The translations under genes were made by a program, and so were the position numbers. A stretch of 37,448 nucleotides of DNA, taken from positions 1 through 37,448 of IMG/VR virus record IMGVR_UViG_3300027498_000076; one strand, 5' to 3'. The stretch comes from a virus. Within the stretch, counting starts at the first letter, position 1. The number at the start of each line of letters is the position of its first letter. Shown here in pieces: positions 5,073 through 35,768 of the stretch. The notes below the pieces were generated by a model. It was given only the letters and a program-made list of their open reading frames with translations. It was not told the origin of the DNA and made no database searches.

Positions 5073-5604
5073 ATATAAAGAAGAATATAATAAAGGGGAA
5101 TATAATAAAGAGAGAGAGGATAAAAAAAACACTCACTCACAAAAAAAAATGAGTGAAAAAAAATCTAAATCTAAATCTGAGCAAGCGAATTCAAAAAAGT
5201 TGCGTCAAAAAAGAAAAAATCAAATGTTGATTGATGATTCAAACTTGGAGGAAGAAATCAACTTGGCGAAAATGGATGAGAGTTGGATTCGCATCAAAAT
5301 TAATTTTTTCAAAACCTTTGTGGGTGTGGAGATGGAGAAGGCAGAATTTCAAGAATGGATTGAAAAATTTTATTTGATGCAAGCGGGCAACGGAAAGACC
5401 TGGCCCAAGACCTCAGAGCTTCGAGGCAATATCGTAAACTGGATAAAATTAGAATTACCCAAAAAACAAAAAACCAATGGCAGATCCAAAATCAATAGCA
5501 AATTTAATTCAGCGACCAAAAGAGAGGGAGGCGCAAATGAGCATAGTTCCACAAAATTCGGAAGGGCAAATGCAGACGACCTCACTAACTGGGTTACAGG
5601 TTGA
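5017..5604 (+). CDS. C-terminal part of the replication initiator, in a shifted frame
   Basis: The frame is open from ATG 5017 inside the iterons; ATG 5149, after a run of nine A residues, is an alternative start giving 151 residues. The N-terminal part is a charged linker. From about residue 75 (numbered from 5017) there is a compact domain (MDESWIRIKINFFKTFVG, FQEWIEKFYLMQAGNGKTW, LRGNIVNWIKLELPKK) like the C-terminal domains of phage replication proteins. It ends DDLTNWVTG. Removing one 22-bp repeat would join it in frame to 4608-5042, so the two probably derive from one protein. It overlaps the preceding frame by 26 nt and the next gene by 68 nt. Confidence 0.7.
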   Translation: MKSEKTRNEIRENSDLNPTYKEEYNKGEYNKEREDKKNTHSQKKMSEKKSKSKSEQANSKKLRQKRKNQMLIDDSNLEEEINLAKMDESWIRIKINFFKTFVGVEMEKAEFQEWIEKFYLMQAGNGKTWPKTSELRGNIVNWIKLELPKKQKTNGRSKINSKFNSATKREGGANEHSSTKFGRANADDLTNWVTG

Positions 5605-6343
5605 AATCTTGGAAGCAAAAAAAAGTCCTATGATTGGAGAGGCGAGTGACCAGGATATTAAGAAAATTTTTGCGAATGTGATTGTGATGGTTGGAATTAA
5701 GCAGTTGCCAGATGAAGTTGCTACAATCAAACTTTTAAACCACCTTAGAAGGCGACACAGAGGGCTTACGCTTGCCGAAATAGAATTGGCGTATGACTTA
5801 GCTATAGCGAGAGAGTTCGAGTGCGAGATACGCCCATTTGGTTTTTTGAGTTGTGAGTATGTCGGAGGTGTATTGGCGGCTTACAAAGCCTACAAAAAAA
5901 GAAAGATTAGTGGCGACGTTCTTTCCAAAGCATACCCACAGCCAGAGGTTTTAGTATTGGAGCAGAAAAAGAGTAAGAGTTACCAAGAAGAGTTAGATAA
6001 ACAAGCAGTTGAGTATGCTCATTATAGATACCTAAAAGGTGAAACTAATTTATATATGCCTCTATGGAATCTTTATCTACACCATTCTAAAACAATAGGT
6101 GTTTGTAATTCAAAGGGGGAATTTCCAAAGAAAAAAATAAAGCGAGCGGCAGTCAAACAATTTATATTACAGCATTATAAAACCCGTTGCAATCCATTTA
6201 AATCTAAGCAGGAATTTGAGCAAATGCTACAAGAAAATAAACAGGTAATCAGGGTTATGGCAGGTGAGCTTTCAGTTATTTGGCTTTTTGAAAAATGGAA
6301 AAGTGAAGGGTGGAAACTAAACGACCAAGAAACCAATGGATAA
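5537..6343 (+). CDS. Replication-associated protein, helicase-loader-like
   Basis: The open frame begins at 5477, but ATG 5537 is preceded by GGAGG at a suitable distance, giving 268 residues. The central region (residues 50-120: VGIKQLPDEVATIKLLNHLR, then LTLAEIELAYDLAIA, FGFLSCEYVGGVLAAYK) has the helical pattern of a protein that commonly follows the initiator in Bacteroidota phages and may be the functional counterpart of a lambda P/DnaC-type loader. No Walker motif is visible. The C-terminal half is helical and Lys-rich. The start overlaps the end of the initiator frame and the stop overlaps the next gene by 8 nt, so they are one operon. The function is inferred mainly from position. Confidence 0.6.
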   Translation: MSIVPQNSEGQMQTTSLTGLQVEILEAKKSPMIGEASDQDIKKIFANVIVMVGIKQLPDEVATIKLLNHLRRRHRGLTLAEIELAYDLAIAREFECEIRPFGFLSCEYVGGVLAAYKAYKKRKISGDVLSKAYPQPEVLVLEQKKSKSYQEELDKQAVEYAHYRYLKGETNLYMPLWNLYLHHSKTIGVCNSKGEFPKKKIKRAAVKQFILQHYKTRCNPFKSKQEFEQMLQENKQVIRVMAGELSVIWLFEKWKSEGWKLNDQETNG

Positions 6344-6881
6344 AAAAACAAGATATTATCCTAAATCAAAAATGAGAAAACCAAGCGAAAAACAAAAAGC
6401 AATATTGAGATTCTTACTTGATGGAGATAAGAAGAAAAGCGAGATTGTTGAGCAGTTCGGGCGTTGGTACTATGCGAATGCTTCTCACCATGTCGGACAA
6501 TTGCTACATCGGATGATTGATAGAAATTTGATTGTGAGAGTCCGACGTGGCGTGTATGGTAGGCGGACAAGCCCTGTTCAGGTCAAAGGGCAATATGCTT
6601 TGTTTTTTGAGGAAATTGACGGAACAGCAGAAGTATTGCGACTTGAAAAACATGTGAATGCCATCGTTACGGGTGGCAATCAGATGATCGCATCAGAGCA
6701 CAAGATGGTAGAAAAGCTAAGCAGTTTGATTTCAGACGATTTGGAATGCTCCATTAGTTACAATGGAGAGAATGGTGTTGAAGTGCGTATGAAACATGAG
6801 GGAAATTGGATTGATCTCGAACTCGAAGATATTAAGGCTGTTTTGAAAACAGGTAGGAAATTTAATTCGCAAGATTTGTAA
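6336..6881 (+). CDS. Winged-helix DNA-binding protein
   Basis: A 181-residue protein with an N-terminal winged helix at about residues 13-75: KPSEKQKAILRFLLDGDKKK, then SEIVEQFGRWYYANASHHVG and LLHRMIDRNLIVRVRRGVYG, the last ending with the wing. The second half is a mixed alpha/beta segment with no recognised family. It is coupled to the upstream gene by an 8-nt overlap and followed closely by 6884. It may act as a regulator of late transcription, given its place at the end of the replication operon, but that is inference. Confidence 0.6.
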   Translation: MDKKTRYYPKSKMRKPSEKQKAILRFLLDGDKKKSEIVEQFGRWYYANASHHVGQLLHRMIDRNLIVRVRRGVYGRRTSPVQVKGQYALFFEEIDGTAEVLRLEKHVNAIVTGGNQMIASEHKMVEKLSSLISDDLECSISYNGENGVEVRMKHEGNWIDLELEDIKAVLKTGRKFNSQDL

Positions 6882-8054: not shown

Positions 8055-8633
8055 ATGGCTAAGAAGAAAATAACTATCAAAATAGATCCAAATAACCCAC
8101 GACATCACAGTGATCGTAACAAGGAGCTTATAAGTAAATCATTAAAAGATAATGGTGCTGGGCGGAGTATTTTAGCTGATGCCAATGGAATTGTTATTGC
8201 AGGCAATGGAACCTACGAACAGGCACAAAAACTTGGAATCCCTATCAAGGTCATCAAAACCAACGGTGACGAATTGGTTGTAATACAGCGAGAGGATTTG
8301 AGTACAGATGATGCCAGAAGAAAGAGCCTTGTTATTGCTGATAATGCAACAACAGATACGAGTACGTGGGATTTTGAAAAGTTAGAGAATGAATACTTTG
8401 ATGATATTGATTTTGAAGAATGGGATGTATTACCATTTGAAGAAAAAAAGGCTGAAAGTGCAAAAGATGATGGTTTTGTTCCATCGGAAAAAATACAAGT
8501 TAGCGTCAGTCGTGGAGATTTGATGGAGTTTGTTTGCCAAGATGGTCGTGTACATCGCCTTTTATGTGGTGATTCTACGAACTTAGATGATTTAAATCTA
8601 TTGATGGGTAATGTATTGGCTGATCTTGGATAA
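8055..8633 (+). CDS. ParB-like N-terminal half of a frameshifted DNA methyltransferase
   Basis: The 192-residue frame has a ParB-like nuclease-fold domain (residues 7-100: KIDPNNPRHHSDRNKELISK, LKDNGAGRSILADANG, IVIAGNGTYEQAQKLGIPIK). An acidic linker (FDDIDFEEWDVLPFEEKK) and the start of a methyltransferase domain (VHRLLCGDSTNLDDLNLLMG) follow. It then hits TAA 8631-8633 just where motif IV should begin. This arrangement is common in phage adenine/cytosine-N4 methyltransferases. The catalytic part continues in another frame at 8611-9291. The ParB-like domain is complete and could still be made, but the protein cannot methylate as written. Confidence 0.75.
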   Translation: MAKKKITIKIDPNNPRHHSDRNKELISKSLKDNGAGRSILADANGIVIAGNGTYEQAQKLGIPIKVIKTNGDELVVIQREDLSTDDARRKSLVIADNATTDTSTWDFEKLENEYFDDIDFEEWDVLPFEEKKAESAKDDGFVPSEKIQVSVSRGDLMEFVCQDGRVHRLLCGDSTNLDDLNLLMGNVLADLG

Positions 8634-9291
8634 CAGATCTCCTTATGGTGTAGATTATACTGATGACAAGAACAGAAAGATTAAAAACGATAATGGCAAA
8701 GGAGAAGACATGGAGGTTTTCTGGTCTTCAGTTGCTTCTAATGTTATTGATAAGTGTAAGGATATTTGTTCCTTTTATTGGTTTTTTGCGAGTGGAGGTG
8801 GACTTGCAAGACATAATTTGAATGCTTTGAATAAATCAGGATGGCATGACAATCACATTTTAATTTGGTTTAAAAATTCGCATGCTTTTAGTAGAACAGA
8901 TTATACTTGCCAACATGAGCCCATTGTGTATGGTTGGAAAAAGGAAGGAATACATAAGTTCTATGGTGGTTTCAAAACGAGTGTATTGGAGTTTGATAAG
9001 CCTCATCGAAGTGAGCTACATCCAACGATGAAACCGATTGAATTGATTGGTGAACTTATCAATAATTCAAGTCTGGAAGGCATGGTAGTTTTAGATACTT
9101 TTTTGGGGAGCGGTTCAACAATGGTCGCAGCTCACCAGTTGAAAAGAACTTGTTATGGAATGGAGTTGGATGAGTTGTATTGTCAGGTGATTATCAATAG
9201 AATGTTGGGATTAGATGAAGGTATCATCGTCAAAATCAATGGAAAAGATGAGACGAAGAAACAGCGAGAAATTCTTGAATTACAAAAATAA
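8611..9291 (+). pseudogene. Catalytic half of the frameshifted DNA methyltransferase (N6/N4 type)
   Basis: The frame resumes the methyltransferase with SPYGVDYTDDKNRKIKNDNG, keeps the FWSSVAS and DICSFYWFFASGGG region, LHPTMKPIELIGELI, and motif I (DTFLGSGSTMVAAH, residues about 165-178) followed by YGMELDELYC. Motif order IV before I fits the beta class. The catalytic DPPY is damaged: the frame reads RSPY. Restoring one base near 8629 and one C near 8640 turns the junction into A-D-L-x-I-T-D-P-P-Y-G-V-D-Y. No further stop or indel is visible. The start listed (8611) is only the nominal frame opening. Confidence 0.75.
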
Positions 9292-9687: not shown

Positions 9688-11124
9688 GTGAATGTCAATA
9701 TTGAATGGAATGAGAAACAGGAAGTAGCACTTGGCTACCTTCTTCCTCATTTTATGGCGGATGCAATGGGCATTCCAACGGCTTCGTCAAATGATAAAAT
9801 AAAAGAAGTTGGATTTGGGGGAGCTGCAGGTGGAGGAAAGTCTTTTTTTGGTACAGGTTGGACTTGGACGATGTGTACTGCTTTTGATAATGTGCATTAT
9901 TTCTGGGGGAGGAACGAGATAAAGAAAATCAAGGATACGACTTTTGAAAGTTACATGGAGTTTTGCGATAAGTATCAAATTCCGAAAAATTGGCGAGGAG
10001 AATATAAGGAACAAAAAGGAAAAATCTATTTTCCCAACGGTTCTAAGATTTCCATGATAGAGTTAAAATACAAGCCATCAGATCCATTTGGTACAAGTTT
10101 AGGTTCTTTGCTTTTCACAGGTGGATTCATAGACCAGAGTGAGGAAGTTGATAGTAGGATGGTGGACAAGATTTATACTCGTGTTGGAAGATGGAAAAAT
10201 GACCACCGATTAGGATTTATTTCTGCTAAGATATTGGAGAGTTTTAATCCACTAAAGAATCATGTTCATCAGCGATTTATCAAAGAAAATAGACCCAACA
10301 GGGCATTTGTGAAAGCTTTAGTAACAGATTGGCTAAAGTATCCAGATTATTTTTTTAAAAACCTACAGGTTCACCCATCGGAGGAAAAGACATGGTATGG
10401 TCAATATATTCTTGGTTTGTTGGAAAGAGACATGGTTACCGTGCAAAGATTGCTTTATGGCAATTTTAACTATGATGATGATCCAACCAGGTTAATTGAG
10501 TATGACGCAATGACTGACATGCTCACCAACAATTTTAGATTTATCTATGAAGGTGAGCAAAGGTATATCACAACAGATATAGCAATGTTTGGAGCGGATA
10601 AGTTTACGATTTGGGTGTGGCAGGGATGGAAGGTGTTAAAGATTATCGTGATAGATAAGTGTGGGGGCAGAAAGATTGTGGAGAAATTAAATGAGGTAGC
10701 GAGTGAGTACGGCGTCCCTCGCTCCAATATCTGCTATGATGCAGATGGTATCGGGTCATATTTGAAAGGAGATGAGGGGTATTTTTCAGGAGCAATGAGT
10801 TTTCAAAACAACGGGAAAACTATAAAGGAGGTGGGGCAGGTTCAAGAATACAAGAATCTACGAAGCCAATGTTGGTTTGGAGTTGCTCGAAAAATCAATA
10901 ATAATGAGGTGTGGATTCCTGGTGAGGTTTTAGGAGAATATAAACAGGAATTATTTGAGGAATTGGAACAGATAAAGAACCACAGACCTGATATGGATGA
11001 AAAACTAATGGCAACGCCTAAGCCTGATATAAAAAAGAATATTGGTCGATCAACAGATTTAGCCGACCCACTAATGATGAGATATATTTTCGACCTGAAA
11101 GGAGGTTGGTCGAGTTATGCTTAA
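9688..11124 (+). CDS. terL: Terminase large subunit (TerL)
   Basis: The 478-residue packaging motor starts at GTG 9688, three bases after the small-subunit stop. The N-terminal ATPase has Walker A GGAAGGGKS (residues 44-52) and a Walker B-like stretch LLFTGGFIDQSEEVD (about 141-155). The C-terminal RNase H-like nuclease has its acidic residues in ITTDIAMFGAD (D297), ICYDADGIG (D351) and STDLADPLM (D457/D460). The protein cuts concatemeric DNA and pumps it into the prohead through the portal. Length and domain order are normal. It separates the early region from the late structural genes. Confidence 0.93.
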   Translation: MNVNIEWNEKQEVALGYLLPHFMADAMGIPTASSNDKIKEVGFGGAAGGGKSFFGTGWTWTMCTAFDNVHYFWGRNEIKKIKDTTFESYMEFCDKYQIPKNWRGEYKEQKGKIYFPNGSKISMIELKYKPSDPFGTSLGSLLFTGGFIDQSEEVDSRMVDKIYTRVGRWKNDHRLGFISAKILESFNPLKNHVHQRFIKENRPNRAFVKALVTDWLKYPDYFFKNLQVHPSEEKTWYGQYILGLLERDMVTVQRLLYGNFNYDDDPTRLIEYDAMTDMLTNNFRFIYEGEQRYITTDIAMFGADKFTIWVWQGWKVLKIIVIDKCGGRKIVEKLNEVASEYGVPRSNICYDADGIGSYLKGDEGYFSGAMSFQNNGKTIKEVGQVQEYKNLRSQCWFGVARKINNNEVWIPGEVLGEYKQELFEELEQIKNHRPDMDEKLMATPKPDIKKNIGRSTDLADPLMMRYIFDLKGGWSSYA

Positions 11125-12280: not shown

Positions 12281-12477
12281 ATACTGTCTCCAAATCAAAA
12301 AAACTGTTTAAAAAATTTGGGCATTACACTACCATACATAGAGTAATGGAAGCAGGATGGTTTAACGGCACACGTTCAACGCCTTACGAATCAGCTTATT
12401 TTGCGCCGTTACACGCAGCGATGCAGGCCCTCGCATACGAATCAAATGTTAATGTTTTAAATGAAGTAAATACATGA
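12214..12477 (+). CDS. Minus-one-frame extension of the tail chaperone-like protein
   Basis: This frame has no start of its own. Read from the slip site it encodes GRAKEAINERYSPVFAKSTD, then VSKSKKLFKKFGHYTTIHRV, MEAGWFNGTRSTPYESAYFA and a terminal helix (LHAAMQALAYESNVNVLN), with a normal amino-acid mix for 87 codons and a stop (12475-12477) that overlaps the ATG of the next gene as ATGA. That overlap is strong evidence that it is translated. The fused product would be about 290 residues. Confidence 0.65.
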   Translation, partial: FGRAKEAINERYSPVFAKSTDLDTVSKSKKLFKKFGHYTTIHRVMEAGWFNGTRSTPYESAYFAPLHAAMQALAYESNVNVLNEVNT

Positions 12478-13529
12478 TGAAAAATAAACGATACTTACAG
12501 TCTTTAATTTTTGCCATGATAAATGGACTTAAAGGTGACGAGCAAGACAAGCGATTACTTGACATATCTTCTAAGTATAAAGCTGTTTTTGGTATCATCA
12601 ATCAATTGGCAAGTAATGGGGAAATTGTCTATTCGACGAGCAAGGCTTATGTCATCAATGGCAGTGATTATTTTAAGAAATACATCACAATTCGCTCAAA
12701 AATACTTGACATAGTTACGAAAACGCAAAGACGCCCTTATCAGTCGCAGCAACATGAAATAAACCTGCTCAAAGAAGAACATGGAACCTCCCTTGTGTCA
12801 TACCACTTAGAAACAATGACAGACGAGCGCATCTTTATTCATGATGAATCAAAAAAAACATACTCTATTTTTGCCGACTTTGATAGTCGTGATTTGCCGC
12901 TAACATCTTGTCCACGGTCACTGTACCAAATGACCCTTGATGAAATCAAAGACAACATCTTAGATATTATTGGGAGCATCAAAGAGCCAAGCTCTCAAAA
13001 AGAAGAACTGGATAGATTCGCTGTTTATTCTGGAATTGATTTGACCGATTCCCTTGCTGGGCTTTTTGCCAATGAAGATATTGAGTATATCGGCTGCACA
13101 CCGTTACATGGTTATAGAATTCCAAAGCCACCACTTTTCAAAGAAGGGGACTTGGTTTATTTGAAGTCGGGTGGTCCGATGATGACGGTTAGCATGGTAG
13201 GGTTAGATTGTGGCATTTCGATTGCTACTTGTGATTGGTTTAATGGAAATGTATTTAATGAACGGCAATTTCACCCCGATACATTGGTGAAGCATGAACC
13301 CATCAAGTCAGAAGAAGGATGGATTACAAAAACAGCAGAAACAGAAATAGAAACCGGTGACAGTGCTCTGATGGATATGATGCACGATGAAAATTGCAGA
13401 TGTTTAATGTGTAATACTTGGAAAAATGCTGACTTTGGAAAGGCAACGACTTATCTCCACCGCCCAAAAACATGGCAGGATAACATTTCAAAACCCCAAA
13501 AAGAGCAAGACTCAAATAGGAAATTATGA
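12474..13529 (+). CDS. Winged-helix protein with a DUF2158-like domain
   Basis: A 351-residue protein. The N-terminal part is helical and winged-helix-like (LLDISSKYKAVFGIINQLAS, then NGEIVYSTSKAYVIN). Residues about 222-273 (FKEGDLVYLKSGGPMMTV, then VGLDCGISIATCDWFNG, ERQFHPDTLV) match the DUF2158 (YodC-like) pattern: KSGGPxMTV followed by C-x-WF and a closing F-x-x-x-x-L. The C-terminus has a Cys pair (ENCRCLMCNTW) that could bind metal. It is coupled upstream and downstream through ATGA overlaps. A DUF2158 module in a phage morphogenesis operon is unusual; its role is unknown. Confidence 0.65.
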   Translation: MMKNKRYLQSLIFAMINGLKGDEQDKRLLDISSKYKAVFGIINQLASNGEIVYSTSKAYVINGSDYFKKYITIRSKILDIVTKTQRRPYQSQQHEINLLKEEHGTSLVSYHLETMTDERIFIHDESKKTYSIFADFDSRDLPLTSCPRSLYQMTLDEIKDNILDIIGSIKEPSSQKEELDRFAVYSGIDLTDSLAGLFANEDIEYIGCTPLHGYRIPKPPLFKEGDLVYLKSGGPMMTVSMVGLDCGISIATCDWFNGNVFNERQFHPDTLVKHEPIKSEEGWITKTAETEIETGDSALMDMMHDENCRCLMCNTWKNADFGKATTYLHRPKTWQDNISKPQKEQDSNRKL

Positions 13530-13765: not shown

Positions 13766-13895
13766 TCCTGTCACAAAAGAAGTGTTCGACCAGCACAGAA
13801 ACAAGATGGGGCATGGGGAATTGGATGGCAAGGGAAATCTAACACTCATATTACATGTTCCAAAAAATCCACTATTGAGCGATACGAGAATATGA
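13737..13895 (+). CDS. Small hypothetical protein, 52 aa (GTG start)
   Basis: The frame is open from 13626 but the part before GTG 13737 merely shadows the membrane protein gene. From GTG the product reads VNHHSNILFNPVTKEVFDQH, then NKMGHGELDGKGNLTLILHV, a plausible small beta-rich protein. Its TGA overlaps the ATG of the next gene, which argues that it is translated. Not recognised. Confidence 0.5.
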   Translation: MNHHSNILFNPVTKEVFDQHRNKMGHGELDGKGNLTLILHVPKNPLLSDTRI

Positions 13896-14584
13896 ACCCA
13901 CTAAATATACAAACAGCAGCAGGAAAGATTGCACGAGCAATGAAACCGCCAAAAGACACGCCACACCCATGCTTGGCATTGCAGGGATTTGGCGTCGGAT
14001 TTGACGACGATTTGGAAGCGGACAATTTTGAAAAAACAAAAATCTACAAAAATAAGGATTACTTCTACTCTCAGGAGTGGGAGGACAGTGGGTACAATCC
14101 TGCTAATCTTTGTCTAAGCTATCCGCTTCTTTTAATGCCACCACCGAACGAACAGTGGTGCATCAAAAATAGATTTGTTGATAAAGAATACTTTGACCTC
14201 ACTTTTAAAGTGCTTGACAGAATGTACGGCGATTATAGTGGCGGCTGTTTGCCTTGCATCGAAAATGATTACTGTTCTAACAGGACATGGGAACAGCAAT
14301 TACAAGATACCCGAAACATTTTAAAATCATTTATAGAGCAGCTTTTAGGCTTTGATTTCGGGGCATGTTTTCCTGATATCGAAGATAGTGCTTGCAAAAA
14401 GATGGGTTTGGCAGAAGATTCAAAAATCCAAATTACCACCTTGTATGATTATACCACAAAGTGTCTAGTCGGAACTTGTGCGAGGCTTAGAATCTGGACG
14501 CATTCGGAATGTGATAATTTTGAATATGATTTTGAAACACCACGACCTCCCATTACGGATCAGGAAGGGTGCGTAGACTGTTAG
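13892..14584 (+). CDS. Cys-rich neck/tail-region structural protein
   Basis: The 230-residue product is not recognised by family. It has 13 or so cysteines, including CLPCIENDYCSN, and a strand-rich C-terminus ending in an acidic tail (ECDNFEYDFETPRPPITDQE). The middle has a helix with LFNNL-like packing (RNILKSFIEQLLGFDFGACF). Position before an HK97 gp10-like gene suggests a neck or tail-completion component. ATGA coupling ties it to the small gene upstream. Confidence 0.55.
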   Translation: MNPLNIQTAAGKIARAMKPPKDTPHPCLALQGFGVGFDDDLEADNFEKTKIYKNKDYFYSQEWEDSGYNPANLCLSYPLLLMPPPNEQWCIKNRFVDKEYFDLTFKVLDRMYGDYSGGCLPCIENDYCSNRTWEQQLQDTRNILKSFIEQLLGFDFGACFPDIEDSACKKMGLAEDSKIQITTLYDYTTKCLVGTCARLRIWTHSECDNFEYDFETPRPPITDQEGCVDC

Positions 14585-14586
14585 GG

Positions 14587-15087
14587 ATGAGCATAGACAA
14601 TACATTAAACGAACTTGGCAGGATTGCCACGGAAAAAATCATCAATGAGTTGATTCAGCAGGGGCATCGTACCACTGGAAAATTGATTGATTCGGTGCAA
14701 TACAAGGTGTATAAGGATTTGTTTGAAGATGGTTTAGAGGTCTCTTTATTTAGGTATGGAATCTATGTAGACAAAGGAGTGAGTAGCCAGAGATTCAAGA
14801 TAAGTAGGGCTTATATAACTGCTATCGTTAGGTGGCTCAGGGTAAAGCAGTTTGTTGGAGATGACAAAAAGCTCCGCTCAATAGCCTGGGCAATCGGGAA
14901 AACACATGAAAAAGAGGGCATTCCTACGCTTAATTCCTACCAACATTCCAAAAATGGGCGAAGGCTCAATTTCATAGGTGTTGCCACTCGTGACATAGGA
15001 GAGGCGGCGAGAAAGGCGGTGGGCGATGCAGGTGAAAAAGAAGTATTAATCAAAATTGATAACATCATTAGAAAAACAACAGCATGA
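14587..15087 (+). CDS. HK97 gp10-like tail-completion/neck protein
   Basis: A GTG at 14569 opens the frame, but ATG 14587 (MSIDNTLNELGRIATEKIIN) is the natural start, three bases after the previous stop, giving 166 residues. The helix-then-strand pattern QGHRTTGKLIDSVQYKVYKD followed by FRYGIYVDKGVSSQRFK is that of HK97 gp10-like neck proteins, which join head and tail. The C-terminal half is helical (RDIGEAARKAVGDAGEKEVL). It overlaps the aspartic protease gene as ATGA. Confidence 0.65.
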   Translation: MSIDNTLNELGRIATEKIINELIQQGHRTTGKLIDSVQYKVYKDLFEDGLEVSLFRYGIYVDKGVSSQRFKISRAYITAIVRWLRVKQFVGDDKKLRSIAWAIGKTHEKEGIPTLNSYQHSKNGRRLNFIGVATRDIGEAARKAVGDAGEKEVLIKIDNIIRKTTA

Positions 15088-15497
15088 TACGAAAAGCAAA
15101 AATAAAATATACTGAATCTGGACATCCAATTGTACCTGTTACAATTAATGGAGAAAGTACAAATTTGATTATTGACACAGGTTCGGATGTGACCTGTCTG
15201 GATTCTTCTAAGTCGGCTGAATTTAAGATCGAGATGGTGGAAGATGAAGAGAGTGAGACGATTGGAGCATGTGGCAAGAAGATTGAAAATAACAGATCGG
15301 CTGATTCCGTCCTTCTGAAAATTGGAGGAGGGCATGCCCCTTTTACTACAACGATGAGAGAGGTGAATTTAATGGACATGACCGACATTATTCCTCATAT
15401 TTCTGAAAAAGAAAGTATTGGAGGAATTATCGGAATGGACTTTATTAGAAGCAAATGTATTATTGATTTCCATAAAGGTATTTTAACTATTAAATAA
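15084..15497 (+). CDS. Retropepsin-like aspartic protease
   Basis: A 137-residue protein with the single-lobe pepsin fold of retropepsins: a strand pair ending LIIDTGSDVTCLD with the catalytic D31-T32-G33, a flap region, and the C-terminal signature SIGGIIGMDFIRSKCIIDFH then KGILTIK, in which the hydrophobic-hydrophobic-Gly motif precedes the conserved helix. One Asp per chain means it must dimerise to be active. It lies between the neck protein (ATGA overlap) and the tail protein at 15498 (adjacent), so it is in the virion morphogenesis operon and may process a tail or neck protein. A separate ClpP-type prohead protease exists at 25591. Confidence 0.85.
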   Translation: MIRKAKIKYTESGHPIVPVTINGESTNLIIDTGSDVTCLDSSKSAEFKIEMVEDEESETIGACGKKIENNRSADSVLLKIGGGHAPFTTTMREVNLMDMTDIIPHISEKESIGGIIGMDFIRSKCIIDFHKGILTIK

Positions 15498-16643
15498 ATG
15501 GCAGAAATTACGAATCAGCCAAATGGAATTATTGTATCGGCGTACTGTCCTATTGGTTTCAATGTGAAAACTGATAATTTAGGAGGTACAGGAATACAGT
15601 ATGAGGTCTTTGTCAATGGACAAAGTAAAGAAATATTCTGTACTGATTGCCGATTTATTCAAGATGGAGAGCAGTTGGTTTATTTTAGTATTGATGTTAG
15701 TGGAGTGGTTCGTGATTGTCTTGGTTGTAATTTCCATGCTTTAACAAATAGTGGGTCTGTTTTTGATAATCCAGACACCTACTTAGAGTTGCAAGTCGAA
15801 TTTAAAGATATTTATGAAGATGCGGATGGTTGCGTAAAGATAAATGAAGACACCGCCGTGATGTCCAGTACAGTAATTGTAACAAATTCAAAAATTCAAA
15901 AAAACAACCTACCAAGACAAGCACCTGAATCAAACAATTATAATTTTGATGCACCCGTAGACTGGATTCATACCAATAAAAGAAAAGTAAGTATTTGTTG
16001 GAATCAAGATGAATTTTTAACGGTTATGCCTGTTAGTCAAACAGGGGGCTATGTTACAGCTTATGATGGTGACGGGAATTCAATATTTAACTCCCCGTTG
16101 GCGTTTCCTGCATTACAGGCAACCAGTTACAATGTTGGTCCTGCTGCATTGGGGCTGCCTCTCAATGCTTGCTCTTATAAAATTGTTTTTTTTGGAGGTG
16201 AAGCAACTGAAAAGCTTGTCTATAAGATTGAAAAAAAATGCTGTACGGAGGTTCGCATTCATTTCAAAAACTGCTTTGGCAAGCAAGACTCCTTTAATTT
16301 CGAGAAAGCTGAAAAGATAAATGATACAACATCAAAAATATTTAAAAAAGGTGAATTCCGTGAGTGGAAAAGAATTAATGACATCAACACAATTAGATAT
16401 AATATTACAAAGCAAGATACTTGGAGATTGTCATTTTGCAATCCAACATCTTGCGAATTAAAATGGTTGAAAGAGCTACAAGAAACAGAAATGGCTTTTA
16501 TAGAGGTTGAAACAAAAGAACCTTACCAACAGAAACAAAAACATTATTGTCAAGTCAGGGTTTTGGATGGCACACAATCCTATTATAAGACGAATCGCAA
16601 TTCATCAGATTTTGAATACTCCATTGAAATTGAAATTTTATAG
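15498..16643 (+). CDS. Tail protein, Cys-rich, upstream of the tape measure
   Basis: A 381-residue beta-rich protein with many cysteines (FCTDCRFIQDG, RDCLGCNFH, KKCCTEVRIHFKNCFGKQDS). The RIHFKNCFGKQDSFNF segment resembles a sequence pattern in Bacteroidota phage tail proteins encoded just before the tape measure gene. The start is immediately after the protease stop. It may be a tail tube or minor tail protein; the N-terminal half could hold a beta-sandwich. The function is inferred from position. Confidence 0.6.
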   Translation: MAEITNQPNGIIVSAYCPIGFNVKTDNLGGTGIQYEVFVNGQSKEIFCTDCRFIQDGEQLVYFSIDVSGVVRDCLGCNFHALTNSGSVFDNPDTYLELQVEFKDIYEDADGCVKINEDTAVMSSTVIVTNSKIQKNNLPRQAPESNNYNFDAPVDWIHTNKRKVSICWNQDEFLTVMPVSQTGGYVTAYDGDGNSIFNSPLAFPALQATSYNVGPAALGLPLNACSYKIVFFGGEATEKLVYKIEKKCCTEVRIHFKNCFGKQDSFNFEKAEKINDTTSKIFKKGEFREWKRINDINTIRYNITKQDTWRLSFCNPTSCELKWLKELQETEMAFIEVETKEPYQQKQKHYCQVRVLDGTQSYYKTNRNSSDFEYSIEIEIL

Positions 16644-25590: not shown

Positions 25591-26838
25591 ATGTCTTTTG
25601 AAGTAACAAACGAAAACAAATTGACCGTTTATATTGACGGAGATATAGGCGGATGGTGGGGGATAAACAAGCAGGAATTTAGATGGTATTTACAGCGTTA
25701 TGGGCGAGGAAAGGATATTGATTTGCTTATTTCTTCTCCTGGTGGAAATGCTGATGATGCGTTAAACATCTATGACTTATTATCTACTTGTGAAGGAAAT
25801 ACAACTGCATACCTTTCTGGTTTTGTTGCTTCAGCAGCGACGATTGTAGCGTGTGGGTGTAAGAAAATTGTAATGACTGAGCAATGTATTTACATGTATC
25901 ATCGTGCAAATGGATGGGCAGAGGGAGATCGAGATGATATGAGAAAAGCCGCTAATACGCTTGAAAAAGTAGATAATATCATCAGCAATATTTATCATAA
26001 AAAAACAGGTATGAGTGATGAGCAGCTTCAAGAGCGCATGAAAGAAGAAACCTATCTAAGTTCTGCTGAAGCTGTAAGTGATAAGTTTGTAGATGAAGTT
26101 GTTCCTAACTTTAGCGGAATGCAAGTTATGAACAAAGCCAATTTATCAAGCATTGAAAATAAATATGGTAAAATTCCAGAAAATTTAATGCCTAAAGCTT
26201 CAAGTAATCCAAAAATCGAAAACAAAAATTTCTTTACAAAAATGGAAGAAAAATTTAACAAGTTATTCAAAAACTTACAAGAAAAATTCAATATCACACC
26301 TAAAAACCAACAAGATGATAAGGGTGATATTGGTGCTCAACTTGAAGAAATTGTCAAAAATACTCTTGGTGATACTGACAATCCTTCAACCATTGAGGAT
26401 GCAATTACCAATAGTGGTAAAGACCGTTCTTTGATTATTGCAGAAATCGCAGAAGAAGCCGACTGTCGAATCTCTGAGGTGAAAAATGCCTTAGAAGGAA
26501 AAGGAGGTAGTGATGATATTTTGGCTGCTATTTCCAATGTTTTGAATATTGAGAAAAGTGTTATTCCTAAACCTCAAAATAGTGGTGAAAGCTCTGATTT
26601 GTCGGCTGATGATATTGCAAAAATCATTGACCAAAAGTTTAAGGAGCAAAATCAAAACATCCAAAACAAACTCGACGAAGCAATACAAAAAGCGGGAGGA
26701 GGAAGTATTACTAATGGCGGTGATGGTGATTGGGGCAATGGAGAAGAATCCGCAGAATTAGATGGTTTAAGCCATCTTGGAAAGGCGGGAGCTAAAGCTA
26801 TGGGAATTACTAACAAAAAGAAAAAAGGAGGTAAATAA
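25591..26838 (+). CDS. ClpP-like prohead protease with scaffold-like C-terminus
   Basis: A 415-residue protein. Residues 1-170 are a ClpP/S14-type serine protease: YIDGDIGGWWGINKQEFRWY, LLISSPGGNADDALNIYDLL, catalytic Ser81 in GFVASAATIVACGC, His104 in YMYHRANGW, and the closing YLSSAEAVSDKFVDEVV. Residues 190-415 are charged, helical and coiled-coil-like with a Gly-rich end, as in protease-scaffold fusions in which the tail helps assemble the prohead and is cleaved. A long scaffold fits a phage with no separate scaffold gene. The stop overlaps the next start (TAATG). Confidence 0.88.
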   Translation: MSFEVTNENKLTVYIDGDIGGWWGINKQEFRWYLQRYGRGKDIDLLISSPGGNADDALNIYDLLSTCEGNTTAYLSGFVASAATIVACGCKKIVMTEQCIYMYHRANGWAEGDRDDMRKAANTLEKVDNIISNIYHKKTGMSDEQLQERMKEETYLSSAEAVSDKFVDEVVPNFSGMQVMNKANLSSIENKYGKIPENLMPKASSNPKIENKNFFTKMEEKFNKLFKNLQEKFNITPKNQQDDKGDIGAQLEEIVKNTLGDTDNPSTIEDAITNSGKDRSLIIAEIAEEADCRISEVKNALEGKGGSDDILAAISNVLNIEKSVIPKPQNSGESSDLSADDIAKIIDQKFKEQNQNIQNKLDEAIQKAGGGSITNGGDGDWGNGEESAELDGLSHLGKAGAKAMGITNKKKKGGK

Positions 26839-27668: not shown

Positions 27669-30031
27669 GATTTCTAACAACCTTATTAATATTACTTCTA
27701 TCATTTTCTTCTTTGGTTTTCAGCCAAGAAACTTGCGTGATAGTTACAGATGTGAATCTTGGCGAATGTGAAGGTGCGAAAATACAATTTGTTTCAAGCG
27801 AAAACTTCCAAGTCTTTGAGTCTCCTGATGGTATGACCTGGACCAACCAAGTCGATGAAGCAACCATCAACTACGATGTAGTGGGTGATGTGATTGCCTT
27901 TGAGTCTGAAAACGGACTTATCACCTATGATGGGACTGATATTTCTATTGTGAGTGGTAGTGATGCACCCTATTACATAATCTATTACAAGGTCTGCAAA
28001 ACCTGTGTCTATAACGGCTTCAACAAAACTCTATGCAGCGAATTTGGCTGTACAGTAATTAAGGGAGGAGGTGAGTATAACCCTTGCGAGGGGGTTATGT
28101 GCGAACCGCCTTTGGTTTGTGTAGATGGGGAATGTATAGACCTATGCGCAGATGTGAAATGCGATGAGGGATATGCATGTGAAGATGGGGAATGTGTAAT
28201 TACAGATCCTTGTGCCGATGTGTCCTGTGAAGAAAATGAAATCTGTGATGGCGGTGAGTGTATTGGCAAAACGCCATCACTCACGATTGAAAAACAAGCC
28301 AATACAGAATCAACAACAGCAGATGGGACGCCAGCCTACAAGGATGGTATTGAATATAGTTACACGATTACCGTCATCAATGATGGAGATGTAGACCAAA
28401 CAGATGTAATGGTCTTTGACCAGCTTCCTATGGGATTGACAATTGTTGGCGACGACTCAGGAGGGGCTTATATAGCTCCTGATTGGACTATTGGCGATTT
28501 GGCTGTTGGAGAAATGGCAACATTGACCATTGACGTGATGCCCAATACAGATGGCGAGATAGATCTGCTTAACCTGGCTTCTGTCAGTTCAAGTGAATTG
28601 CCAGAAATCATCGAGGTAGAGAGCCTACTTCCAGAAGTACCTTGTACAGAATGTTGGAAGTTTCCACATCACGATAATGCAACATTTCATGATGGCAGTG
28701 CATACATTCCTGTTCCTTTGCCCAACTTCACTGGATCCCATACAGGACAAGGTTCTGTAATGATGGGAGTTGATAGCGGTCAAGGCATCGTTTCAAATCA
28801 ATATTTTTGGAACTTGGGCGGACAAAATGCAATTGGTTTCAAACGAGGGCAGGAATATTCTATATCAATTATTAGGACTAATTGCGCCGAAGATTGCGAA
28901 ACGGATATAAGGTTTTTGGGAGAGAAAAAGGCATGGTCTTTTCTCTTAGCCCAAGCCTTAACTGATAATCTTAATGGCACATATGCCTTTGGGGTTAATG
29001 GTACTGTCGGAACAGGAGCGAATTTGTTAGGTGGATTTGGGGGGTATGTACATGGAACGCCTGTTAATTGTGAATCGTGTGAATTGGAATCTTACAGAGT
29101 CAATCCAGTGAACAAGCAAGGAGAAATCTTGAAAGATATTTGGGTTGAAGTCGTGGTGGGATATACCACCTACCAACTTTGCGAAGAAGCACCCGAACCA
29201 GTCACAAGCATAATTAATTGTGAGGGAGGCGAATGTTCATGCGAGTTCCAATTAGTAGACCACAACAACGGAAACGAACCCGTAACAGAACTGTCACTTA
29301 GTTGTAAGGGAGAATATCATGTACTTGTAGATGATTGTACAAGCGTAACATCAATATCTTTGGTTCAAGGCGAAACGGTCATTGAAGGTGTTGTTACTGA
29401 AAACGGAAATGGAATATTGCAATTAGATGGCGTAGAAGCAGGAAGTTATCTTTTTTCTTTGGGAATTGATGGATGTGATGATGTTCGCTTGAAAGCTGTT
29501 GTTGATTGTGAGAAGTGTAGAAATGTTTGCGTCTGGTGTGCTGCTGACAACACGCCTAGGTTTGCAAAGCAAAATGGTGAAATTTTGAACTTGACAAAAG
29601 ATTTGAATGGAAATTACTATGAATCAGGAGATTGTAGTGGAAATTCAAAAAACCTGAATGAAACTATTATAGATGGAGAAACATTTGTAAGCACTTGGAT
29701 GGAAGTTGATTGTAATCAACGTGTGTTTACTGTTGATAATGTAATTTCTTTGAGCCAAACCACAAATTGGATTCTACGTGATTGCAATGGCGTTAACGTC
29801 TCATCTTCTTTTAGTGGCAATATTAAGGACTTTTTTGATTTTTTGGGACTTAATTATTCCGTTGGGAGTCCCGTAAATCAAAATAGTACTGTTTCTTATA
29901 TCATTGATAACTTTGATTCTGTTTTTAGCTCTTTTTGCTTTGACTCTAACGACCTTTCACCATTCTATCAAGGCACGCCGCCAAATGAGTTAGATAGAAC
30001 CTTCCCAAAATGCAATTGTAATTCCAAATGA
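27665..30031 (+). CDS. Secreted Cys-rich protein with DUF11 domain
   Basis: A 788-residue protein with a Sec signal peptide (MRFLTTLLILLLSFSSLVFS, cleavage after residue 20). Residues about 138-202 hold three Cys repeats of the CxxVxCxxxxxCxxGxC type (CADVKCDEGYACEDGECV). Residues 203-325 match DUF11 (LTIEKQANTESTTADGTPAY, YSYTITVINDGDVDQTDVMV, LPMGLTIVGDDS). The rest has further Cys-rich beta domains. Such modules are typical of Bacteroidota surface or secreted proteins. It is coupled by ATGA overlaps both to the Ig-like gene and to the metalloprotease, inside the head operon. It could be an exported adhesin or envelope-modifying factor; phage virion proteins do not normally carry signal peptides. 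Confidence 0.7.
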   Translation: MRFLTTLLILLLSFSSLVFSQETCVIVTDVNLGECEGAKIQFVSSENFQVFESPDGMTWTNQVDEATINYDVVGDVIAFESENGLITYDGTDISIVSGSDAPYYIIYYKVCKTCVYNGFNKTLCSEFGCTVIKGGGEYNPCEGVMCEPPLVCVDGECIDLCADVKCDEGYACEDGECVITDPCADVSCEENEICDGGECIGKTPSLTIEKQANTESTTADGTPAYKDGIEYSYTITVINDGDVDQTDVMVFDQLPMGLTIVGDDSGGAYIAPDWTIGDLAVGEMATLTIDVMPNTDGEIDLLNLASVSSSELPEIIEVESLLPEVPCTECWKFPHHDNATFHDGSAYIPVPLPNFTGSHTGQGSVMMGVDSGQGIVSNQYFWNLGGQNAIGFKRGQEYSISIIRTNCAEDCETDIRFLGEKKAWSFLLAQALTDNLNGTYAFGVNGTVGTGANLLGGFGGYVHGTPVNCESCELESYRVNPVNKQGEILKDIWVEVVVGYTTYQLCEEAPEPVTSIINCEGGECSCEFQLVDHNNGNEPVTELSLSCKGEYHVLVDDCTSVTSISLVQGETVIEGVVTENGNGILQLDGVEAGSYLFSLGIDGCDDVRLKAVVDCEKCRNVCVWCAADNTPRFAKQNGEILNLTKDLNGNYYESGDCSGNSKNLNETIIDGETFVSTWMEVDCNQRVFTVDNVISLSQTTNWILRDCNGVNVSSSFSGNIKDFFDFLGLNYSVGSPVNQNSTVSYIIDNFDSVFSSFCFDSNDLSPFYQGTPPNELDRTFPKCNCNSK

Positions 30032-31959
30032 AAAAACTAATCTACATATTATCAATCCTTTTCGCTTTTTCCTTACAAGGGCAAAATTGCGAATTGAAAG
30101 GCGATGCTGGCGAATTGTGCAATTGTGCAGGAGCGAGCCACAACGACGAAGCCGACAGGAAGTTTGAACGCTTATTTCTTGCTTCTCCGATTGACGAGCG
30201 TGAAAGCAGTAGCGTTGAGACACCTATTATTACGGAAGTATTACAGCACTTTCCAATGTCATTTTCTTTTCGATTCGAAGCAGGAAAAGCGGACGGATTC
30301 ACGTACTACATCTATCAAGGCGACAAACGCCTAATAGCTAAAGCACTAAGAGGTGACAGAAGTACAACTTCGTATCTAAGTGCAGAAGATTTGCAGCTAA
30401 CAGATTATGATACGCCTTTGACAGTTCAAATCAAAGCAAGGTACAAAGGCAAGGAGAGCAAGAAAGGGAGTATTGAGGTTATGCCGATTAAGAGGAAGCC
30501 ACTTGCACACAAATCTTATGAATTTCAATATAGATGGAATCGTGAATATGGTATTGATGGCAGAACAGGCGACAGGACAGAAGGGTGGACGCAAGCAGAA
30601 ATAAACGAATTAGAGCCAAAGGTGAAATATATCATTAAATGGCTTGAAAAAGCCTATGGCAATCCTGCCAGCGACTTACCTTTTGTATTTACAAAATTCG
30701 AGAACTCTTCTAAGGCATATAAAATTCCTGCTTATGGAGAGCTTAGGTTTTCAAAAGATATTGATATTCGACTGTTGGGTCACGAATTAGACCATGCTTG
30801 GTGGTGTCCTACGAATCTCACTGTTGATGCCAATTGGAAGTATGATAGTGCCAATAGTTTCTTAGAAGAAAGCAGGGCTGAATATATTGGTCGCCAGATT
30901 GCAAATGAATATAATTGGAACGGTCATCTATATGACTACTATAATACGTCTGCAATAAGAGCCAATGAATTCTTTTTTGCAGATGGTGCAATGAATGAGC
31001 AGTACGTTCAATATGGAATTGGTGCAGAAGCTGTGAAAAAGATGGAATACTCAATACCTGATATTATTTCAAATTTCTATGAAATAGTTTGTACATCACT
31101 CACCAGAAATCCAGAGACAATAACAAAGGACTGGATTCGCTACAAGTTGATTGAAGCAAGCGAGGGAGAAAGAGTTGAGGGAATGGGGTTTGCTGATTGG
31201 TACGATGCTCAACACATATTTGATGGGGGCGTTTTTGAAGGGGAGAGAATTTACCAAACTATCGATTATACAAGTATTAATGATTTAGAGACTTTATGTG
31301 AGAATCGATTTTACCTGATAGATGTATTTGATAATGGGAATGCTTGGGAATCTGATGATGGACAGAAATACAATAAGAATGGAGAGATAGGACATATTAG
31401 GGTAACAAAACATTCTGGTGAAGTTGTATTTGATGAAGATTTACAAATTACACCGATTGAGCATAAAAGAAAAATAGGAAAGGTGCGTATCACCCTATCA
31501 TCAGCAGATGAAGAAAATAGTTTTACTTCTCGTCGAAGCAATTTCGATGACCATCACATAATCTTTGTAGAACCAGAACTGAACCTTTACAAGATTGAGG
31601 TAGAGTTCGGAGAAAATACATTAAAGACTTATCGAATTTTTGGAAATATTGACGATGAATCTGACCTGATACTTGTTGGAGTACCTAATGTACGAAATGG
31701 CACATTATGGACAACCGGTGATGATGGATTTGATTTGGAAAACGGCGTTGCCGTCGTGAATAACTTCGAGGGCGGAGAATTGGCGACAAACTTTGGCACA
31801 AGAATTCTACCAACAAGCAAATACACTCAACACGTCATCTTTGAAGGGCAAAAAGCACCAACAGAAGAAACGCCAACAGAAACAACACCTGAAGAAGGCT
31901 GCGAAAACGAAGTAATCTTAAAAGAATTGAGACGGCTTATAAACAAATTTGAAAACTAA
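30028..31959 (+). CDS. Secreted zinc metalloprotease (HExxH)
   Basis: A 643-residue protein with a signal peptide (MKKLIYILSILFAFSLQGQ). An Ig-like beta region precedes the catalytic domain, in which LLGHELDHAWWCP supplies the HExxH zinc motif (His252, Glu253, His256). The glutamates in FLEESRAEYIGRQIA (Glu281 or Glu285) are spaced like the third ligand of gluzincin peptidases. The C-terminal part is beta-rich and ends with a Thr/Pro/Glu linker and a helix (NEVILKELRRLINKFEN). It is coupled to the secreted Cys-rich gene by an ATGA overlap and precedes the capsid gene. A likely role is cleavage of host envelope or extracellular protein during release or superinfection control; its substrate is unknown. 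Confidence 0.75.
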   Translation: MKKLIYILSILFAFSLQGQNCELKGDAGELCNCAGASHNDEADRKFERLFLASPIDERESSSVETPIITEVLQHFPMSFSFRFEAGKADGFTYYIYQGDKRLIAKALRGDRSTTSYLSAEDLQLTDYDTPLTVQIKARYKGKESKKGSIEVMPIKRKPLAHKSYEFQYRWNREYGIDGRTGDRTEGWTQAEINELEPKVKYIIKWLEKAYGNPASDLPFVFTKFENSSKAYKIPAYGELRFSKDIDIRLLGHELDHAWWCPTNLTVDANWKYDSANSFLEESRAEYIGRQIANEYNWNGHLYDYYNTSAIRANEFFFADGAMNEQYVQYGIGAEAVKKMEYSIPDIISNFYEIVCTSLTRNPETITKDWIRYKLIEASEGERVEGMGFADWYDAQHIFDGGVFEGERIYQTIDYTSINDLETLCENRFYLIDVFDNGNAWESDDGQKYNKNGEIGHIRVTKHSGEVVFDEDLQITPIEHKRKIGKVRITLSSADEENSFTSRRSNFDDHHIIFVEPELNLYKIEVEFGENTLKTYRIFGNIDDESDLILVGVPNVRNGTLWTTGDDGFDLENGVAVVNNFEGGELATNFGTRILPTSKYTQHVIFEGQKAPTEETPTETTPEEGCENEVILKELRRLINKFEN

Positions 31960-34307: not shown

Positions 34308-35768
34308 ATGGCGAAAAAACGCTCAAATAGAAAAAGGGGAAATCAAAATAGGAGCAAAGAAATCCAGCATGAAAATGCTGGATTTCTTTTGCCTGTTAAA
34401 AACATAGCTCCTTCTGCCCCATTGCCAACAGAAGATGATGGTACTCATAACACCAATCGTTATGATTATCATCGTTGGTATAACAATGGAACTGATTTTG
34501 TCAGAAATCTTCAATGTCTTGCAGAACTTTCTCCGACACGTTCAGCTTGTATTGGAGATAAAACTTGGCTATCAATGGGAGATGGCTTCACTATTAATCG
34601 TAGAAGCCGTTCAGGTATTTTTGCAGCTTTTCAATTTTTCAAAGAGCATATTGTTGGCATTGAAGATAAGGGTAGAGATTTGGTTGCAGACTTCTTGGAG
34701 TCTAAGAACAATGACGGTGAAAACCTGTATGAATTACTAGAACAATCTTTCAGGAATTATTACGGACTTGGAAATGTTGTTGTTGAACTTGTTAGAGGGT
34801 CGGTTTTAGGGGAGCGATATTTTAAGGTATATGTTCACCAAATAGCTGACTGTGTTTTGTCTAAGCCAAAAAAGCAGAGGGGAAAACAATATGTGCTAAT
34901 TGCCAAAAAGAAAAATGTCTTTTCTTCTAACGGACACCCTCCAACAAAAATACGATTAGGAGAGTGGGAGCGAAATGGAAAAGAGGAGCGTATGGCAATT
35001 TGGATAAAAGATGAGAAGATAGGACGTAAAATTTATGGTGTTCCTTCAGGAGCGTCATCTATTAAATGGCAAATGTTAGAATGTCTTTCTCCTTGTCATG
35101 TTATTCGTCGGGTTGAGGACGGTTTTGCCGCAGATACTTTTATCGAATTGGTTGAGCGAAAAACGCTCACTAAAAAACAGCAAAAAGCCATTAAAGATAT
35201 GTTTCTCCAAAAGTTTACCAATATGGAGATTGAAGGATTGGAAGATGTGCAGAAGGAGAGTGTTATTACCCGATTTGTTCAGGATCCAGAGATGTTCTCT
35301 AAAGTGCACAATCTGCAACGTAATGATGATTATAGTTACATCAAAGAGTCTCTTTTAGATGCAGAGCGTAATATCTTAAAGTCGGAACATTGGTCGCCTA
35401 TTTTATTAGGTGTTTCAAAGAATAATTCCATTGGGCGAAGTAGAGAAATATCGGATGCCATTAATTTGGCAACAATAAAGATAATTAGGCCCACTCAAAA
35501 TAAAATATTAAGCAGATTTATAAATACTGCTTTGAGAGAATGGGGGCAGTGGATGGGTCATGATAAATCTATTAGTGGATATAGTGTAGATGTTTCAAAA
35601 GGCATTAATCCATTTGTGGAAATGAATCCATCTGGTACCATGACTATTAATGAAGTTCGAGCGATGAATGGAATGCCACCGCTTTCTGATGCCAAAGGGA
35701 ATTTGCGACCAGAAGGTTTTGAACTTGCTACTCTTAGACAAACCAATCAAAATGTCAAAGTCAGTTAA
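34308..35768 (+). CDS. Portal protein
   Basis: A 486-residue protein with the pattern of phage portals: basic N-terminus, then SPTRSACIGDKTWLSMGDGF and SFRNYYGLGNVVVELVRG (wing strands), the stem-type region (ALREWGQWM, preceded by RPTQNKILSRFINT), and a C-terminal crown-like segment with MTINEVRAMNGMPPL. The PxxxNxxR-like ending MTINEVRAMNGMPPLSD is common in portals. It forms the dodecameric ring through which TerL packages DNA. Its gene lies after the capsid rather than before it, a rearranged order. Confidence 0.8.
   Translation: MAKKRSNRKRGNQNRSKEIQHENAGFLLPVKNIAPSAPLPTEDDGTHNTNRYDYHRWYNNGTDFVRNLQCLAELSPTRSACIGDKTWLSMGDGFTINRRSRSGIFAAFQFFKEHIVGIEDKGRDLVADFLESKNNDGENLYELLEQSFRNYYGLGNVVVELVRGSVLGERYFKVYVHQIADCVLSKPKKQRGKQYVLIAKKKNVFSSNGHPPTKIRLGEWERNGKEERMAIWIKDEKIGRKIYGVPSGASSIKWQMLECLSPCHVIRRVEDGFAADTFIELVERKTLTKKQQKAIKDMFLQKFTNMEIEGLEDVQKESVITRFVQDPEMFSKVHNLQRNDDYSYIKESLLDAERNILKSEHWSPILLGVSKNNSIGRSREISDAINLATIKIIRPTQNKILSRFINTALREWGQWMGHDKSISGYSVDVSKGINPFVEMNPSGTMTINEVRAMNGMPPLSDAKGNLRPEGFELATLRQTNQNVKVS

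Follow-up and report, generated by a model that had tools for sequence, protein, structure and literature searches.

Why would a tailed phage carry the gene for a retropepsin-like aspartic protease between its neck and tail genes? The question is raised by IMG/VR virus record IMGVR_UViG_3300027498_000076, a stretch of 37,448 bases (positions 1 to 37,448 of the record) that is called the window below. A preliminary description of this DNA had proposed that the protease processes a neck, tail or tape measure protein. Retropepsins in tailed phages have been little discussed: full-text literature searches returned no paper treating them, and an annotated "aspartyl protease" is carried by crAss-like genomes.

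The retropepsin gene and its surroundings

The large terminase subunit encoded in the window has counterparts at 31-33% identity in Flavobacterium phage 11b, Polaribacter phages P12002L/S, Cellulophaga phi10:1 and Bacteroides phages, and the window is therefore assigned to a phage of the Bacteroidota. Among bacterial contigs, the closest terminase (37% identity) is found on a Chitinophagales MAG contig. About 23 kb separate the large terminase gene (9688-11124, plus strand) from the portal-like gene (34308-35768, plus strand; phrog_12, E 3e-4), which lies downstream of it, beyond the tail genes and the gene of the ClpP-type protease; this order is unusual when compared with phage 11b. Two plus-strand ORFs, one ParB-like (8055-8633) and one for a DNA methyltransferase (8611-9291), overlap in different frames; both are matched by a single ORF in each of the relatives L012, L038, L052, L053, L066 and L108. 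A frameshift, either programmed or an assembly error, may split a ParB-methyltransferase fusion at 8055-9291.

Table 1. Positions of the retropepsin gene, its motifs and selected virion-related genes in the window
Feature	Position	Strand	Basis
230-aa protein upstream of neck gene	13892..14584	+	Gene order in relatives
Neck / tail-completion-like protein, 172 aa	14569..15087	+	phrog_5 and homologues in related loci
ATGA overlap, neck stop TGA / retropepsin start	15084..15087	+	Sequence
Retropepsin-like aspartic protease gene, 137 aa	15084..15497	+	Pfam, family HMM, Foldseek
Catalytic motif D31-T32-G33-S34	15174..15185	+	Translation and alignments
Flap-like segment TIGACG, residues 59-64	15258..15275	+	Alignments; phmmer
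Second core motif I115-I116-G117-M118-D119-F120 (hydrophobic-hydrophobic-Gly)	15426..15443	+	Translation and alignments
381-aa tail-region protein	15498..16643	+	Comes after neck gene in relatives; weak profile match
Tape measure protein, 1772 aa	16648..21966	+	phrog_25337 E 4e-46; PF10145
ClpP-type head maturation protease	25591..26838	+	phrog_94 E 9e-50; PF00574 E 9e-26

The identification of the ORF as a single-lobe retropepsin-like aspartic protease is firm. The protein passes the gathering scores of PF13650 (34.5 bits against a cut-off of 24.3; E 3e-8), PF13975 (31.5 bits, cut-off 28.2) and RVP (24.1 bits, cut-off 20.7), and it is scored at 83 bits (E 3e-24) by a family HMM built without it; with NCBIfam TIGR02281 (clan_AA_DTGA) it reaches 20.8 bits and misses the cut-off of 57.95. 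D31, T32 and G33 are invariant across our alignments A3, A6 and A7. They lie in the context LIIDTGS (residues 28-34), where a hydrophobic strand precedes the motif, and the residue following DTG is serine, as against the alanine that is usual for the family. In the flap-like segment, which phmmer pairs with the HIV-1 protease flap, G61 is invariant in A3 and A7. The IIG of the second core motif (residues 115-117) is part of GGIIGMDFI, in which G117 and D119 are invariant or near-invariant in A3 and A6.

The protein is also predicted to adopt a retropepsin fold. Its AlphaFold2 model has a mean pLDDT of 75.7, with a poor flap (residues 57-70, pLDDT under 50), and the best solved matches of this model in Foldseek are Rickettsia APRc (PDB 5c9b/5c9d/5c9f; best E 1.6e-5), the retroviral-protease-like domains of Ddi1 (TM 0.5-0.6) and retroviral proteases. 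APRc is a retropepsin-like aspartic protease from an unrelated bacterium; both it and Ddi1 are only about 14-19% identical to the window protein and have different cellular roles. Three Pfam families, the HMM and Foldseek thus confirm the earlier recognition of DTGS at residues 31-34 and of IIGMDF, which occupies residues 115-120, and speak against chance occurrence of the motifs. No signal peptide or membrane segment was detected in the protein, and its N-terminal hydropathy is low. Judged from its sequence, it is probably soluble, active and homodimeric. By description, not by sequence, it can be likened to RimB of Pseudomonas fluorescens, a cytosolic A2-type retropepsin that has a DTG motif and has been modelled as a dimer; RimB removes glutamates from ribosomal protein RpsF and has no phage link (PMC11957791).

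The gene is tightly packed on both sides. The translational coupling to a neck gene that had been noted earlier is borne out by the ATGA overlap, and at the other end the TAA of the retropepsin is followed immediately by the ATG of the 381-aa gene (TAA|ATG, 15495-15500). The 172-aa neck-like protein itself matches phrog_5 ("tail completion or Neck1") weakly (E 0.024), and three of its homologues in related loci match the same family at up to 5e-8. The preliminary description had placed the protease next to a tail protein. The adjacency stands, while the tail label of the 381-aa gene rests on position and a weak hhalign match to the proteins in the relatives' slot (E 0.029), the protein having no family match. 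The ClpP-type prohead protease is present as described. The composition of the retropepsin gene (GC 0.357, GC3 0.30) and its codon likelihood are ordinary, and a recent foreign origin is unsupported by codon usage.

The neck-tail slot in related phages

Related loci were fetched from viral and genome contigs by the terminase alignments A1 and A2, giving 153 loci (2.17 Mb). These kin are distant, with terminases 32-38% identical to that of the window. A recurring order of terminase, small gene, p224-like gene, p230-like gene, neck and tail protein is present in L009, L074, L011, L015, L023, L103 and L104. The gene order in L009, L074, L011, L015, L103 and L104 identifies a positional counterpart of the 230-aa protein. 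Outside the window, the neck HMM found 39 neck-like ORFs among the 153 loci. In 30 of the 39, a tail-type gene directly follows the neck; the next ORF is 165-1061 aa long, counted from the first Met and with some ORFs cut by contig ends, and the gap is -23 to +92 nt. In four others the slot is taken by another gene, about 140 aa long, and the remainder are cut off or spaced.

Apart from the window's own gene, the retropepsin HMM detected no retropepsin in the 153 terminase-selected loci; a near-twin of this HMM, used as a control, recovered 44 of 44 held-out chromosomal and 4 of 4 held-out phage members. Compared with its kin, in which this slot is otherwise closed, the window has the retropepsin as an additional gene. 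From this pattern in distant kin we infer a gain in this lineage, not many losses. The proposed role in processing neck, tail or tape measure proteins is weakened accordingly: the conserved linkage to virion genes that would mark a morphogenesis protease was not found within the related phages.

Single-protein scans of viral and genome contigs gave no close homologue of the retropepsin or of its neighbours. Searches by tblastn gave no match in plasmids, and in phages just chance-level partial matches in Pseudomonas phages. A 351-aa protein with a DUF2158 domain (12474-13529, plus strand; PF09926, E 2e-11) is encoded between the p224-like and p230-like genes of the window, and a phmmer search of the relatives found none except for a weak match in L120. 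The block that holds this gene and the retropepsin may carry several lineage-specific insertions.

Retropepsins in Bacteroidota chromosomes and their phages

Relatives of the window protein are found in the chromosomes of Chitinophagales, Flavobacteriales, Bacteroidales and Cytophagales-type genomes. Of 248 genomes from the order to which the Chitinophagales MAG belongs, 29 have a match with an E-value of 1e-3 or lower; at stricter limits, matches occur in 24 of 395 genomes of the Flavobacterium order, 14 of 393 of the Dysgonomonas order, 6 of 291 of the Hymenobacter order and none of 300 of the Pedobacter order. All of the 43 chromosomal loci that were inspected by eye have ordinary chromosomal surroundings and none lies in a phage block; frequent neighbours are tatD (Flavobacteriia) and ribBA (Chitinophagales). 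The chromosomal proteins (PF13650/PF13975) resemble the window protein in architecture, in length (142-177 aa, compared with 137), in a conserved IxGIIGxDxL...IDY C-terminus and, for the most part, in lacking a signal peptide. The window protein is up to 31-33% identical to them, which is also about its best identity to any relative. They differ from it in their conserved non-phage neighbourhoods and in having DTGA instead of DTGS.

Phage-borne retropepsins occupy varied positions. In the crAss-like phages (crAss001 gp66, cr106_1 and cr128_1), the gene lies between those of dUTPase and DNA polymerase I. Like the window protein, these are retropepsins of Bacteroidota phages and are detected by the same HMM; however, they are only 22-27% identical to it, and it has neither their N-terminal hydrophobic segment nor their dUTPase-PolA neighbourhood. 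In Bacteroides phage C3_41T2LP, the gene follows that of the tape measure protein at a distance of 1.9 kb and has an antirepressor nearby. Among the IMG/VR copies, L162 adjoins a DNA polymerase gene, L161 a helicase gene and L157 an endolysin-like gene; L158 lies between the terminase and portal genes; L261 is immediately upstream of the tail sheath and tube genes; and in L156, L262 and L263, which are large phages related to one another, the gene lies upstream of a connector-like 391-aa gene. A signal, lipobox or membrane segment is present at the N-terminus in crAss001 gp66, cr106_1, L155, L156, L157, L159, L161, L261, L262 and L263, and is absent from the window protein, L158, L162 and C3_41T2LP, as it is from most of the chromosomal proteins.

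The closest parallels in placement are L261 and L156/L262/L263, in which a phage-encoded retropepsin is likewise found next to virion genes. These are contractile-tailed large phages, however, their retropepsins are signal-bearing or lipoprotein-like, and the neighbouring genes are not homologous to those of the window. The L156/L262/L263 retropepsins are 33-40% identical to one another, whereas the 391-aa neighbour is 81-88% identical and a 520-575-aa neighbour 52-70%. Such fast change at a fixed position fits better with a non-virion target than with an assembly step under conservation, although relaxed constraint would look alike.

Late genes make up about half of many phage genomes. The placement of phage retropepsins shows no clear excess beside virion genes, in a sample too small for a formal test. 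The idea that such genes might be conserved beside tail genes elsewhere holds in part: L261, L156/L262/L263 and L158 lie in structural blocks, but replication and lysis modules are represented equally. Given this spread among many modules, location alone is weak evidence for a role in morphogenesis.

Two further arrangements were observed. In L158, a prophage-like contig, the retropepsin gene (5905-6405) is of the chromosomal type and overlaps the end of the terminase large-subunit gene. In the tree it nests among chromosomal Flavobacteriia-type proteins, which suggests that a host copy entered a late operon by a separate capture, in parallel to the gene of the window, or alternatively that the contig includes host DNA. 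The near-identical phage contigs L159 and L160 have tandem signal-bearing retropepsins (5348-5815 and 5905-6369).

Origin and role of the protease

A phage-borne retropepsin is of a known kind, and the neck-tail position is new. We consider it probable, at roughly 0.6, that the product is a soluble retropepsin of one lobe and that its gene was inserted at the neck-tail slot in this phage lineage and retained as an accessory gene. Its family is that of the short aspartic proteases, which are common across Bacteroidota chromosomes and turn up repeatedly in Bacteroidota phages. The protein would be translated late, through its coupling to the neck gene. Because one 137-aa lobe has one catalytic aspartate, two copies would form a homodimer to which each contributes its DTG aspartate, and because there is no export signal, limited proteolysis by this putative dimer would occur in the cytoplasm. 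The target would more likely be a host protein or a non-structural protein than a part of the virion. Since a ClpP-type head protease is present, the retropepsin is not needed in that role. Some points speak against the accessory-gene reading. The tight packing on both sides and ordinary codon usage are those of a well-integrated gene and not of a recent insertion with its own promoter; retropepsins near the tail sheath (L261) and near connector-like genes (L156, L262 and L263) make a virion role recur as a possibility; and the kin from which the gain is deduced are distant.

Such a role would be that of a maturation protease: produced alongside the neck and tail proteins, it would cleave one of these during assembly, the 1772-aa tape measure protein being one candidate. 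The position of the gene, its coupling to the neck gene, the intact DTG motif and the L261 and L156/L262/L263 placements, the latter near a head-tail-adaptor-like gene, are all consistent with this. Nevertheless, we regard it as unlikely. None of the related loci found has a retropepsin in the homologous slot, and homologues or counterparts of the neighbouring genes occur in its absence; replication and lysis modules contain other phage retropepsins; in L156/L262/L263 the virion genes have changed far more slowly than the protease; and a ClpP-type head protease is already encoded by the phage. A more specific version, in which a captured host housekeeping protease became a dedicated tail or neck maturation retropepsin, with L261 and L156/L262/L263 as parallels in contractile-tailed Bacteroidota phages, is less probable again.

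Another possibility is that the window protein belongs to a separate phage lineage of retropepsins, together with crAss001 gp66 and its lipoprotein-type kin, that acts on the host envelope or on host regulators, its placement in the tail operon being incidental. In a tree cleaned of spurious rows, the window protein groups with 11 phage rows (99/96), and the recurrence of phage retropepsins in many modules would agree with such a lineage. However, a branch of the same tree also leaves the window protein and the chromosomal rows on one side (95/87), and when four long rows are removed, no starred set contains the window protein. In the cleaned trees it falls between the phage and chromosomal groups, and its placement shifts with the rows used. 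In addition, the window protein has none of the N-terminal elements (signal, lipobox or membrane segment) that most members of this group carry. We consider this explanation improbable as well. An AU test that rejected a clade of chromosomal proteins and the window protein (p 0.0099) was set aside, as L158, which is nested in that clade, had been left out; with L158 added there is no conflict with the clade.

The least likely explanation is a catalytically idle passenger or assembly adaptor that keeps the retropepsin fold for binding and not for cleavage, as might be read from the divergent sequence (about 30% identity to anything found), the serine in place of the usual alanine and the low-confidence flap, but DTG, the hydrophobic-Gly motif and G61 are all retained, and a serine after DTG is also found in crAss-like cr128_1 and occurs in pepsin-type enzymes.

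The distribution as a whole suggests repeated acquisition of short retropepsins by Bacteroidota phages, both in soluble and in membrane-anchored form, with insertion near replication, lysis, packaging and tail genes. This recurrence is the more interesting lead. A phage retropepsin that did cut virion proteins would represent a new type of maturation protease in phages; if phage retropepsins cut host proteins, they would form a new class of phage effector.

The window also encodes a 643-aa protein (30028-31959, plus strand) for which searches of Pfam and PHROG gave no match. It begins with a signal-like segment and has an HExxH-type motif (LLGHELDHAWW ... EESRAEYIG), which suggests a zinc metalloprotease.
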